Positions 58,679 through 63,719 of a stretch of DNA of 64,000 bases are shown in pieces. The position numbers and the translations under genes are program-made. This stretch comes from Bacteroidia bacterium (GTDB lineage Bacteria; Bacteroidota; Bacteroidia; B-17B0; Aurantibacillaceae). The notes under the pieces were generated by a model that was not told the DNA's origin, searched no databases, and saw only the letters and a list, made by a program, of their open reading frames with translations. Position 1 is the first letter of the stretch, and each line of letters starts with the position of its first letter. The stretch is from assembly GCA_022842625.1 (NCBI GenBank), contig JALHPG010000001.1, positions 124,001 through 188,000 on the forward strand. Direction: 5' to 3'.

Positions 58679-59389
58679 ATGGAAAATTTAAAACCAAACG
58701 AACAAAGAGCAAAAACTGCTATCCTACTAATTTGGATTGCGCTGGCCTTTGAAGTTATTTCTTTAATATCTGCCTATTTTCAATACGACTTGCTAGATAG
58801 CGCTGCAAATGGCGCTGAGATCACACAAGAAACTGCCTCTGCAAACGACACCAGAGAGCAAATTATTGGCATTCTTAGTTTAATAGTTTCCCTTGTTTCC
58901 GGAATAACTTTTATTCAGTGGTTCAGACGAGCATACTTTAATCTTCATTTAAAAGTAGAGCATTTAGCGCATTCAGAAGGTTGGGCGGCCGGATGTTGGT
59001 TTGTGCCAATTTTGAGTTTATACAGACCATATCAAATAATGAAGGAATTGTATTCAGAAACAAAAGACTTGTTAGTAAAAAAAGATTTAAGTTTTAAAGA
59101 GACATTTTCTCAAGCATCCCTAGGTATTTGGTGGACCCTATGGATCAGTAACAATATTATTGGTCAGTTTATTTTCCGTTATTCTATGAGAGCAGAAACA
59201 ATTCATGAACTAACCGTTAGCACAATTGCAAGCATGATTGGAAACATTATTGGTATTCCACTTGCTATTATAACAATAAAAGTTATTAAAGATTATTCAA
59301 ATGTAGAACCACTGTTGAATGAACTGGTGGAAGGTGCTGATATTAAAAAAGGAGAAGTAACACCAATACCTCCTGTTGATTTGGCGTAA
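58679..59389 (+). CDS. DUF4328-like membrane protein
   Basis: FIQWFRRAYFNLH...HSEGWAAGCWFVPILSLYRPYQIMKELY. Confidence 0.75.
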   Translation: MENLKPNEQRAKTAILLIWIALAFEVISLISAYFQYDLLDSAANGAEITQETASANDTREQIIGILSLIVSLVSGITFIQWFRRAYFNLHLKVEHLAHSEGWAAGCWFVPILSLYRPYQIMKELYSETKDLLVKKDLSFKETFSQASLGIWWTLWISNNIIGQFIFRYSMRAETIHELTVSTIASMIGNIIGIPLAIITIKVIKDYSNVEPLLNELVEGADIKKGEVTPIPPVDLA

Positions 59390-59473
59390 TCCCCTCTTTT
59401 TAATATATTTGATGAGGCCATGCCGCCTTGGCATTGCCCCATTTAACAACAAAAAATACTATTAAACATATTT

Positions 59474-59710
59474 ATGGACGATATTAAGGTCTTTATACAA
59501 GAAGAGGTAATGAATTTAGCTTTTAAAAAAGTTGGTTATGATGAGTCGTTGGTTAGATCAAAATTATTGGATTCTATTTCAACTGTTGACCTTTTGGTCG
59601 CCATTGAAGAAAAAATCGGTAAGCAGGTTCCGCAACATTTATTTATTGAAGAGAATTTTGATACAATAGACCTTATTTACGATACATTAAAAAAGAATAA
59701 TTTGTATTAA
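59474..59710 (+). CDS. dltC: D-alanyl carrier protein-like acyl carrier protein
   Basis: Phosphopantetheine site LLDSISTVDLLVAIEEKIG; first gene of the dlt-like operon. Confidence 0.82.
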   Translation: MDDIKVFIQEEVMNLAFKKVGYDESLVRSKLLDSISTVDLLVAIEEKIGKQVPQHLFIEENFDTIDLIYDTLKKNNLY

Positions 59711-60897
59711 TGAAAAAAATAATACTGCTTTATTTTGTTCCGTTATTTATTGTTTTGTTTTGTTTTTTTAAATTTAGCGATAAAATAAATTCTGTTTTTT
59801 TTGATCAGGAACAAAATGCAGCAGTTGATCCTTCCTTTAATTGCATCGCAAATTTTGGAAACTCCCCCTATTATGAAGATCAGTTCTTAAACACATCAGA
59901 TAGCAATGAAACTATTTTTATTTTAGGTTCGTCTGAATTAGCACCCGAAACAGAAGCGCATCCTTATAATTTTATATCCACACATTTTAAAACAAAACTC
60001 AAAGGCGTTGGCCATGCAGGCAATCAATGTTTTTCAATCTATTCGCAATTACTAGCCAACGAAAAACGTTTAAAAAACGCCCCTATCGTAATTGTGTTAT
60101 CGCCGGGTTGGTTTTCTGAATATGCAAAAGGCACCTCGTCATCCATTTTTTTAGAATTTAATTCTTCGCGATTTCTGACCCGGATTTTTCAAAATAAAAC
60201 TCTTCCTGAATTTAAAGCATATGAAGCAAAACGAATTTCTGATCTTTACACAGAATTTAGTAATGCTGACTTAATATTAACCATGTTTTATTTAGAAGCT
60301 CAGGCTTCAAAAAATATTTTCTTCAAAGCCTTCTATTTTCCAATAATTGAAACCATCAAAGTACTAAACACTTTAAAGTTAGATCTAAAAAAATCAAATT
60401 ATAAAGAAACTACGTCGGTAAATAGAAAAACAATTGTTGCTGAATCGGTAACTATTAATTGGGACAGCCTTTTTGTTTCGGCTAAACAACAACAAATTAG
60501 TAACTCAAATAATAATAAATGGTTTATTGAAAACGGCTATTACTCAGAACATGTGAATGGGAAAACCCGAACAATACCCTTAGTTAATGATGATGTAAAT
60601 CAAGAATTAAAAGATCTAAAAATGTTACTTAAACTTTTAAAAACAAAAGAAGTAAATGCTTCTTTCATCATGTTGCCACTAAGTCCTTATTGCTACACTA
60701 ATACAAAAGAGCTTACGCCACTTATTACTGCAATAAATAATGAACTTAAAAACAATAATTTTCCTTGCTTGAATTTATGGCAGGATGATTCAATAAATTT
60801 TGACAACGGTATTTTATCAGACGTAATGCACTTAAGCAAATATGGCTGGTACAAGGCAGATAAATTTATTGTTGAAACTTATAAACTCTCAAAATGA
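59710..60897 (+). CDS. dltD: DltD-like SGNH-type protein
   Basis: N-terminal TM; FILGSSELAPETEAHPYNFI; C-terminal DVMHLSKYGWYKAD; TAATG overlap with dltC. Confidence 0.85.
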   Translation: MKKIILLYFVPLFIVLFCFFKFSDKINSVFFDQEQNAAVDPSFNCIANFGNSPYYEDQFLNTSDSNETIFILGSSELAPETEAHPYNFISTHFKTKLKGVGHAGNQCFSIYSQLLANEKRLKNAPIVIVLSPGWFSEYAKGTSSSIFLEFNSSRFLTRIFQNKTLPEFKAYEAKRISDLYTEFSNADLILTMFYLEAQASKNIFFKAFYFPIIETIKVLNTLKLDLKKSNYKETTSVNRKTIVAESVTINWDSLFVSAKQQQISNSNNNKWFIENGYYSEHVNGKTRTIPLVNDDVNQELKDLKMLLKLLKTKEVNASFIMLPLSPYCYTNTKELTPLITAINNELKNNNFPCLNLWQDDSINFDNGILSDVMHLSKYGWYKADKFIVETYKLSK

Positions 60898-61043
60898 AAA
60901 AAACATTCACATTTAATTTTCTAGCAAATATTCTTTTGTATTTATTTATTGTTTTGGCTTTTTATTTTTTATACAGTCCTTTAAACACGCATCCTAATAA
61001 CAAACCAGGTTCATCTGCTAAATTTGTATACCAACAGTTTTAA
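60894..61043 (+). CDS. dltX: DltX-like 49-aa single-TM protein with C-terminal FxYxxF motif
   Basis: MKKTFTFNFLANILLYLFIVLAFYFLYSPLNTHPNNKPGSSAKFVYQQF; ATGA overlap with dltD, 2 bp before dltB; not in the supplied ORF track. Confidence 0.8.
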   Translation: MKKTFTFNFLANILLYLFIVLAFYFLYSPLNTHPNNKPGSSAKFVYQQF

Positions 61044-61045
61044 AC

Positions 61046-62197
61046 ATGCTTCCATTTAGTTCGATAGATTTTTACATACTCATTGCCCTATTTATAGGGC
61101 TAGTGGTGGCATTAAAATTTTTATTGAGCAACGCGTATTACAAATATGTATTAGCACTACTAAACTTTTCGTTTTTGATCTTTGCCTTTCCAAAACCATA
61201 TCATTTTTTTGTATTTATTGTTTTTTCGTATGCAGGAATTTACTTGTTCTCAACTATTTTAAAATTTAGTCTGAAAATATGGGGAATTCTTTTTTTATTA
61301 TTACCAATGCTTCTCGTAAAATTAGAAATACGCTCCGAATTTGACCTCTCTCATCTATTATCGTTTGCCGGCTTATCCTATGCAACATTTCGCGTAATTG
61401 GTTATTTTATGGATAGAGCTCCGAATGAAAAAATGGCGGATCCTATAACTTATTTTAATTTTTTAGCCTTTACACCAACGTTATTAATAGGTCCTATTGA
61501 GCGATACGGACGATTTAAGACTTCACAAGAAAGTGGTTTTTTATCGATTACTACCGAAAACTTTATTGTTGGCTGGAATGCCTTGTTAAAAGGGATCGTT
61601 TTTAAATACATAATTGCTGAAGTAATTGATAGGTATTGGCTAAATCTGTTTCCCGAAACAAGTAAAGACATTTTACATATGGCAAACAATATGTACGCCT
61701 ATTATTTTTATTTGTTTTTTGATTTTGCCGGCTATTCGTTTATGGCTTTAGGCGTTGGAAAAATGATGGGAATAAATGTTCCGGTCAATTTCACAAATCC
61801 GTTCCTTGCGGTAAGCCCTCAAGATTTTTGGAGACGATTTCATATAAGTTTAGGCGATTGGTTAAAGGATTACTTTTTTACTCCCTTATATGTGTTCTTA
61901 ACAAGAAAGAAAAGTTTAAAAAAATACCCTGTACTTCGTCAAAACATTGCCTTAATATTAACCTTTGCATTAATGGGTTGCTGGAACGGCTTTAGATTCA
62001 ATTATATTTTAAGTGGTTTATTATTTGGCATTTATTCTGCCGTGCACAACAGCTATAGCATCCAATGTAAAAAGAAGGGAAAAGATGTTCTTTTTGGCAA
62101 TTTACATCCCTTGGCAGTACAAATTATCAGCATTTTTATTATGTTCAATTTAGCAGCCGTAGCCATGTATATTTTTAGCGGCCGCAGTCCTTATTAA
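61046..62197 (+). CDS. dltB: DltB-like MBOAT family acyltransferase
   Basis: PQDFWRRFHISLGDWLKDYFFTPLY MBOAT signature, about 9 TM helices; WNG at the usual WHG position. Confidence 0.85.
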   Translation: MLPFSSIDFYILIALFIGLVVALKFLLSNAYYKYVLALLNFSFLIFAFPKPYHFFVFIVFSYAGIYLFSTILKFSLKIWGILFLLLPMLLVKLEIRSEFDLSHLLSFAGLSYATFRVIGYFMDRAPNEKMADPITYFNFLAFTPTLLIGPIERYGRFKTSQESGFLSITTENFIVGWNALLKGIVFKYIIAEVIDRYWLNLFPETSKDILHMANNMYAYYFYLFFDFAGYSFMALGVGKMMGINVPVNFTNPFLAVSPQDFWRRFHISLGDWLKDYFFTPLYVFLTRKKSLKKYPVLRQNIALILTFALMGCWNGFRFNYILSGLLFGIYSAVHNSYSIQCKKKGKDVLFGNLHPLAVQIISIFIMFNLAAVAMYIFSGRSPY

Positions 62198-62207
62198 TTA
62201 AAAGAAG

Positions 62208-63719
62208 ATGAAATATAATTTTAAAACCAAACAATTTTCAGAAATTGAAACTGCTCCCAAAAAACTTGCAATAGCCGGAAGCGACAGGGACATTGATTGG
62301 GATACATTAAAAACAAAAACCGAACAGCTGGTTAAGGTGTTTAATGAAATTGGTATACCAAATGGACATCCGGTTATTATATACGGGCACAAAGAATATT
62401 TATTTCCACTTGCGATATTAGCTTGTATTCATTCAAACACTACTTACATTCCCATAGATAAAATTTATCCAATAGATAGAATTAAAAAGATCATTGAAAA
62501 AACCGGGTCTCAAATTTTAATTAATTGCTCCGAAGAAACCTTGGATATTAATATTGCAATTACTATTAATTCATCATTTAATACAACCGTTAATTTTATT
62601 CCTGATTACTCAAATAAAATTTACGGAATACCCGAAGACCCTCTTCAATATATCATGTTTACATCAGGATCAACAGGGGAGCCAAAAGGAGTGCAAATTA
62701 CCCAAAACTCCATTCTTACATTTTTAAATTGGGCGCAAAAAGATTTTGGCTTTTGCTCCGATGATGTGTTTATGAATCAAGCGCCATTTACATTTGATGT
62801 TTCACTATGCGATGTGCTTAATTCTTTCTCACACGGCGGAACGCTCGTGCTAAATTCAACAAACATAGTTAAAGATCAAGAGGCGTTTTTTAAACGCTTA
62901 GTAAATTACAAATGTAGTGTGTGGACATCCACTCCATCCTTTGCCTATTTGTTCCTTCGCCACCCCGATTTTAATGCAGAAAAAATCTACACCATAAAAA
63001 CATTTTTATTTATGGGCGAAGAATTACCAAACCGCACTTGCTCTATTTTAAAAAAATCGTTTAACGATGTAAGAATATTAAACGCTTATGGCCCAACAGA
63101 GGCTACAATTGTAACAACACTAGTTGAAATAACAGATGACGTTATTTCAAAATACCCAATGTTACCAATTGGTTTTCCAATGCCAGCAAGCAAAATAGTA
63201 ATTGAAAAACTAGACCCTAATGATAAAGAAGGGGAGTTGATCATAGTTGGCGAACATGTTTCGATTGGCTATTTTAAAAATGATGAACTAAATAAACAAA
63301 AGTTTTTTTTACACGAAGGGAAACGCGCATTTAAAACTGGTGACCTGGCCTATTACGAAAACGAAATGGTTTTTTGTATAGGAAGAAATGATGATCAGGT
63401 TAAAATGCATGGTTTTAGAATTGAACTGAATGAGATAAGCAATGTACTTTGTAAAAATGATCTCATCTCAGACGCAGTAACAATTGCCTTAAAACGAAAT
63501 AATGAAGTAAAAAAGATCGTAAGTTTTGTAATTGTAAAAGAGCCCATTCAAAAAGAAGAATTAAACCAACACCTAGTTGCATTTTTAAATACTACCTTGC
63601 CGTATTATATGATCCCGGGTGATTTAGTAACTGTAGGCTCTTTCCCTTACAGCACAAGTCACAAAATTGATAAAAACAAACTCATTGAAGATTATTTAAA
63701 ACAACAATTTAATAATTAA
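62208..63719 (+). CDS. dltA: DltA-like D-alanine:carrier protein ligase (adenylation enzyme)
   Basis: YIMFTSGSTGEPKGVQIT, TPSFAYLFL, NAYGPTEATIV, FKTGDLAYYE, KMHGFRIELNEI. Confidence 0.87.
   Translation: MKYNFKTKQFSEIETAPKKLAIAGSDRDIDWDTLKTKTEQLVKVFNEIGIPNGHPVIIYGHKEYLFPLAILACIHSNTTYIPIDKIYPIDRIKKIIEKTGSQILINCSEETLDINIAITINSSFNTTVNFIPDYSNKIYGIPEDPLQYIMFTSGSTGEPKGVQITQNSILTFLNWAQKDFGFCSDDVFMNQAPFTFDVSLCDVLNSFSHGGTLVLNSTNIVKDQEAFFKRLVNYKCSVWTSTPSFAYLFLRHPDFNAEKIYTIKTFLFMGEELPNRTCSILKKSFNDVRILNAYGPTEATIVTTLVEITDDVISKYPMLPIGFPMPASKIVIEKLDPNDKEGELIIVGEHVSIGYFKNDELNKQKFFLHEGKRAFKTGDLAYYENEMVFCIGRNDDQVKMHGFRIELNEISNVLCKNDLISDAVTIALKRNNEVKKIVSFVIVKEPIQKEELNQHLVAFLNTTLPYYMIPGDLVTVGSFPYSTSHKIDKNKLIEDYLKQQFNN

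Follow-up and report, generated by a model that had tools for sequence, protein, structure and literature searches.

The presence of a dlt operon in a Gram-negative bacterium raises the question of whether it works as it does in Gram-positive hosts, and on which envelope component. Here, we analysed a 64,000-nucleotide stretch of the genome of an environmental member of Bacteroidia (assembly GCA_022842625.1, contig JALHPG010000001.1, positions 124,001 to 188,000; hereafter the window), in which five genes, dltC-D-X-B-A, occupy positions 59474-63719, all on the + strand. A previous reading of the window from its letters alone (the original prediction) had placed a complete operon there, and its coordinates and gene junctions proved exact to the base. 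What it overlooked is that the histidine considered invariant among membrane-bound O-acyltransferases (MBOATs) is lost from DltB throughout the clade and, in view of this loss, the notion of a Gram-positive Dlt system residing in a Gram-negative cell is too simple. We estimate a probability of about 65% that the operon encodes a variant Dlt pathway that is complete and functional and transfers aminoacyl groups onto a non-teichoic envelope acceptor, with His266 of DltB as the base and Asn314 as its partner. The features of the operon are as follows.

59474-59710, + strand: dltC, 78-aa carrier protein with DltC as best NCBIfam match; phosphopantetheine Ser34 in LLDSIST
59710-60897, + strand: dltD, 395-aa SGNH-type transferase with an N-terminal membrane helix; LGSSEL (Ser74/75), D371, H374
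60894-61043, + strand: dltX, 49-aa microprotein with a single hydrophobic stretch; FVYQQF at its end (FxYxxF acyl-shuttle motif, Tyr46)
61046-62197, + strand: dltB, 383-aa MBOAT; H266, N314 and S323 correspond to His289, His336 and Tyr345 of Streptococcus thermophilus (St) DltB
61985-61987, + strand: AAC codon of DltB Asn314, in the context TGC TGG AAC GGC
62208-63719, + strand: dltA, 503-aa adenylation enzyme; D197 (amino-group contact), M269 at the Cys269 position, K486

The genes are tightly packed, with a TAATG overlap between dltC and dltD, an ATGA overlap between dltD and dltX, and gaps of 2 bp (dltX/dltB) and 10 bp (dltB/dltA).

The conserved MBOAT histidine is replaced in DltB of Bacteroidota

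The AlphaFold2 model of the window's DltB (predicted local distance difference test score, pLDDT, 91.5) has solved DltB structures as its top PDB matches, namely 8jem (template modelling score, TM, 0.87) and 6bug (TM 0.84). Comparison with solved DltB at the sequence level gave 1.5e-38, and the protein scored 65 bits against PF03062 and 237 against the NCBIfam DltB model (cut-off 375). DltB thus has the MBOAT fold but lacks the catalytic WHG His signature. The catalytic residues of MBOATs are held to be the invariant His together with an Asn, Asp or His located further upstream (PMC12979248, PMC5831804), and in S. thermophilus DltB, His336 and His289 line the pocket with Tyr345, Trp335, Trp285 and other residues (PMC11035591). 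When pocket positions were assigned by alignment to the latter protein, Asn314 was found in place of St His336 and Ser323 in place of St Tyr345, while St His289 is kept as His266.

The replacement is not a peculiarity of one genome. In the first alignment, Asn and Ser occurred in 17/17 Bacteroidota DltB sequences, and His and Tyr in 70/70 from other phyla, a non-exhaustive set picked by similarity to the Bacteroidota query. The wider set of 30 distinct DltB sequences from Bacteroidota (median identity 47%, lowest 37%) showed the same, with Asn and Ser in 30/30; it includes copies found via DltD alone, so that the DltB residue itself could not bias their selection. The upstream catalytic His (H266) was found in 17/17 aligned copies and is invariant in the 30 distinct ones. 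Over 21 copies, the Asn codon is AAT in 15 and AAC in 6, and Ser uses both AGY codons, thus it is the residues and not the DNA that are conserved.

Fourteen pocket positions of St DltB were examined: 11 show either no change or variation in every group, and complete switches are confined to H336 and Y345; W288 is Phe in 15/17 Bacteroidota DltB proteins and position 400 is variable. The unchanged rest of the pocket, taken with the invariant Asn and Ser, looks like an active, rebuilt site rather than decay. A His located 20 residues past Asn314 (in VHN) was considered as a replacement base and rejected, since two copies have Tyr there. The six other intact MBOATs of the source genome, all of AlgI/PatA type (contigs C3, C39, C106, C37, C89 and C67; loci L092-L095, L098 and L100), keep WHG and bear a fused C-terminal FIYFxF tail, hence the change is confined to this DltB family. 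Two further MBOAT matches in this genome carry internal stops. To our knowledge, conserved replacement of the invariant MBOAT His within a complete pathway has not been described.

The operon encodes a complete, divergent Dlt system

DltD matched PF04914 at 2.5e-50 (172 bits, cut-off 22.7) and the solved DltD 7dxm in the PDB at 9e-9, and it keeps the catalytic motifs GSSEL and DxMH expected of the SGNH transferase of a Dlt pathway; against NCBIfam DltD (TIGR04092) it scored 130 bits and missed the equivalog cut-off of 150. DltC has the pantetheine serine of a carrier protein, Ser34, with weak profile scores (28 bits against NCBIfam DltC, cut-off 68; 19.2 against PF00550, cut-off 20.8). DltX, with 10.6 bits against PF12459 (cut-off 25), is recognised from its position and its FVYQQF C-terminus and not from the profile. 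It is the Tyr of the FxYxxF acyl-shuttle motif that receives the acyl group from DltB and delivers it to DltD (PMC12148441), and the motif with its Tyr was present in all Bacteroidota DltX copies read. For DltA, the top score among single-domain chains belongs to the solved DltA 3fcc/3dhv (2.6e-95), and the 430 and 414 bits obtained with the NCBIfam DltA models (cut-offs 476 and 560) also point to a DltA.

By these comparisons the locus is a true Dlt-type system. The original prediction had named alginate or cellulose acetylation genes and fragments of a nonribosomal peptide synthetase (NRPS) as the competing identities, and the Pfam and NCBIfam profiles, PDB matches and DltB fold all speak for Dlt genes instead. 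The profile searches it had proposed were only partly in its favour: PF04914 was over its cut-off and the nearest families are Dlt, while the NCBIfam cut-offs for DltA, B, C and D and that of PF12459 were missed. Since the equivalog cut-offs are missed for DltA, B, C and D, the proteins, as judged from their scores, are nearest to the Dlt families but belong to a divergent branch.

All five proteins of the Gram-positive dltXABCD systems are represented, with the carrier Ser, the FxYxxF Tyr, the DltD Ser/Asp/His and the DltB fold. What differs is the gene order, as had been predicted, the His336 to Asn and Tyr345 to Ser replacements, the distance of DltX and DltC from the curated families, and the lack of a detectable PF04464 polymerase in the genus. 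In three Bacteroidota DltC proteins (genes at L012 5417-5644, L026 5427-5651 and L027 5403-5636) Ser or Thr replaces the Asp that precedes the pantetheine serine (LSSIL, LTSIL), which is unusual for carrier proteins.

Distribution and evolution of the operon in Bacteroidota

The first genome scan was based on two peptide patterns and its counts are lower bounds: at least 16 Bacteroidota loci, including two titled just 'uncultured bacterium' and placed by grouping, and at least 64 loci from other phyla. Among the matches listed, the order was C-D-X-B-A in every complete Bacteroidota locus, C-D-X-A-B in Chloroflexota, D-C-X-A-B in Verrucomicrobiota, and D-X-A-B-C or A-B-C-D-X in Clostridia. The second survey used the DltD family alone as the query. 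Many of the genomes in the present analysis are metagenome assemblies. Strong DltD matches were obtained in 8/87 genomes of the order and in 13/395 genomes of the class Bacteroidia (11 families, source genome included); eight of these 13 loci were extended, and all eight have the order C-D-X-B-A. No further genome in the first sample of the phylum (394 genomes) had a strong DltD match, and a plasmid collection had none at all. The original prediction had asked for a survey of this kind, and the outcome is uniform: each complete copy found in Bacteroidota has the five genes in identical order, hence the arrangement is not due to chance.

Weak PF04914 matches in other Bacteroidota were not counted as Dlt. 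They lie mostly beside canonical WHG MBOATs, some of which carry a fused FIYFQF tail. PatA/PatB and AlgI-type pairs resemble the Dlt route in leading from an MBOAT via a C-terminal FxYxxF Tyr to an SGNH partner (PMC12148441), but they use acetyl-CoA as the donor, have the motif fused to the MBOAT and keep WHG. At L137-L139, SGNH proteins weakly similar to DltD adjoin MBOATs in which the WHG motif occurs twice (CGLWHG and WGLWHG/WGIWHG), representing a different type of MBOAT-SGNH pair in Bacteroidota.

Dlt systems outside Firmicutes are not new: one has been published for Bordetella, and the first scan found loci in Verrucomicrobiota, Chloroflexota and Desulfovibrio. The operons of these three groups (L028, L032, L040, L041, L045, L075) also encode a DltX-like FxYxxF protein; they are arranged as C-D-X-A-B, D-C-X-A-B or A-B-C-D-X, with Chloroflexota sharing the C-D-X part of the Bacteroidota order, and all of them keep WHG and Tyr in DltB. 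Two Chloroflexota operons (L028 1281-4926 and L032 2703-5134) have two dltD genes beside one DltX-like gene, and streptococci (L056, L057, L062, L067, L072, L084) have, apart from or adjoining the canonical dltXABCD, another set of dltB, dltD and DltX-like genes. The closest Gram-negative precedent we know of is the dra locus of Bordetella pertussis. This proteobacterial, dlt-like locus, compared here by description and not by sequence, agrees with the original statement that such loci occur in a few Gram-negatives, and it is reported to attach D-alanine to an unidentified outer-membrane component (PMC9410548, citing Taneja 2013). None of the papers within reach of a literature search, which lacked most subscription journals, dealt with Bacteroidota dlt operons.

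In quick trees, for which no root was inferred, the Bacteroidota form one fully supported group for DltB, DltD and DltA alike, and the stem of the DltB clade measures 1.86 changes per column. Two dlt subtypes exist within one genus (G404 versus the source genome G000, G398 and G401). The contig flanks recur in other genomes of the same genus of Bacteroidia, therefore the contig did not stray in from a Gram-positive. Six dlt-less relatives have the genes that lie upstream of the window's operon, and in 4/4 of those read further a different gene set follows, MoxR/DUF58-like by eye. This cluster (L119-L122) lies just downstream of a 303-aa gene; in the source genome, the dlt operon, a DUF4328 gene and further genes occupy the matching stretch. 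When the flanks of 17 loci were compared all-against-all, no gene recurred beyond close relatives save isolated common-family matches. A portable five-gene cassette, often moved or lost within Bacteroidota, would fit these patterns; recent import from the sampled Gram-positives would not.

Proposed route of the aminoacyl group

The observed gene content, order, motifs, fold and clade-wide switch are the starting point of the following scheme, in which the activity, the amino acid, the role of His266 and the acceptor are predicted from sequence. DltA would activate the amino acid (D-alanine being the likeliest) and load it onto the pantetheine arm of DltC. DltB would then pass the aminoacyl moiety across the inner membrane to Tyr46 of DltX, which would hand it to the DltD serine, and DltD would esterify a hydroxyl of a non-teichoic glycan or lipid of the periplasm or outer envelope. 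The residues needed from donor to acceptor (DltC Ser, DltX Tyr, DltD Ser/Asp/His) are in place. As for the DltB site, His266 (St His289) would most likely be the base and Asn314 its partner, a His/Asn pair as in ACAT1, DGAT1 and PORCN, with the positions exchanged in Bacteroidota DltB. The broader proposal, that a whole MBOAT branch with an exchanged His/Asn pair aminoacylates an envelope polymer of Gram-negatives for which this modification has never been described, is put forward tentatively, at somewhat less than even odds.

The original prediction had also argued for an acceptor other than teichoic acid. This remains a sensible suggestion, since PF04464, the TagF-kind teichoic-acid polymerase, was absent from 40/40 genomes of the genus (LtaS was not searched for).

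Alternative explanations for the loss of the histidine

Several observations weigh against the proposed pathway. DltB and PatA depend on the homologous His (PMC12148441), therefore an enzyme that has lost it could be dead or of a very different kind. Each of the five proteins falls below some curated cut-off, the window's DltA has Met at the Cys269 position, which is variable in the clade, and the flank comparison of 17 loci linked no acceptor gene to the cassette. The main rival to a rebuilt site is a DltB devoid of its own transferase chemistry, serving as a gate or scaffold through which the DltC arm would reach DltX, with transfer proceeding without an MBOAT base or with one supplied by DltD or DltX. 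In favour of this rival, the supposedly universal His is gone in 30/30 sequences, as in HHATL, which has Leu in its place and is regarded as a non-enzyme (PMC5831804). HHATL, however, is a vertebrate protein with Asp at the first position, where Bacteroidota DltB has His. Moreover, His289 and nearly the whole remaining pocket are conserved at a minimum identity of 37%, the Asn and Ser are themselves invariant, which argues for rebuilding rather than decay, and no clade-specific conserved base is found near DltX Tyr46. We therefore consider a non-catalytic DltB unlikely.

The nature of the transferred group is a separate matter. D-alanine is likely, because DltA keeps Asp197, the residue that holds the amino group, and the genome encodes an alanine racemase domain within an 817-aa frame. 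It is less than certain, since Cys269, important for the choice of D- over L-alanine in Bacillus cereus (PMC4176424), is Met here and varies in the clade (Met or Ile in 11/17, Cys in 6/17). This position was dropped as a D-alanine test because it varies in Gram-positive DltA too. If the pathway carried glycine, L-alanine, D-serine or a beta-amino acid, the Met and Ile residues, as well as Y345S and W288F within the DltB pocket, could be seen as adaptations; yet Cys persists in part of the clade although the DltB switch is universal, and neither the Gram-positive variation nor the kept Asp197 favours this view, which we find doubtful, if worth considering. A small NRPS-like product or a different acylation pathway built from Dlt-like parts seems very improbable. 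Gramicidin synthetase does top the phmmer list for DltA, but with a score summed over two modules, and its best single module reaches 197 bits versus 323 for solved DltA; no further NRPS-like gene was seen nearby (by eye and comparison, not by profile), and DltB, DltD and DltX always accompany DltA. Least probable of all is an ordinary operon recently acquired from a Gram-positive, or a contaminating contig: the patchy distribution would suit it, but the single deep Bacteroidota clade in all three trees with its long DltB stem, the flanks common to Bacteroidota relatives and the 30 distinct copies across many genomes do not.

Promoter region and neighbouring genes

The source assembly comprises 4.09 Mb and is 98% complete, and the operon's contig has 195,260 bases. 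One further feature was noted upstream of dltC.

59380-59411, + strand: candidate Bacteroidota-type promoter TTTG-N20-TATATTTG, a consensus match only; 5' untranslated region of ~55 nt

The TTTG pattern follows the general Bacteroidota promoter consensus. Written as TTTG-N19-21-TANNTTTG, it has two matches in the 64 kb on both strands, one of them being the candidate dltC promoter, and -7 boxes resembling that of the candidate are found at some related loci, not all. An Rfam search upstream of the operon gave no credible element, and sigma-70 and terminator scans gave no more matches than shuffled sequences. The gene directly upstream of dltC on the same strand (58679-59389) encodes a DUF4328 membrane protein; it was not found beside dlt elsewhere and is probably outside the Dlt system.

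Significance of a DltB branch without the histidine

The MBOAT field is built on one invariant His, and a conserved natural branch without it, within a pathway that is known and otherwise complete, directly tests which residue performs the chemistry of transmembrane acyl transfer. Aminoacyl esters of the Gram-positive envelope are a major determinant of its charge and of peptide resistance. In many uncultured Bacteroidota, envelope aminoacyl esters may likewise exist, on an unknown polymer.

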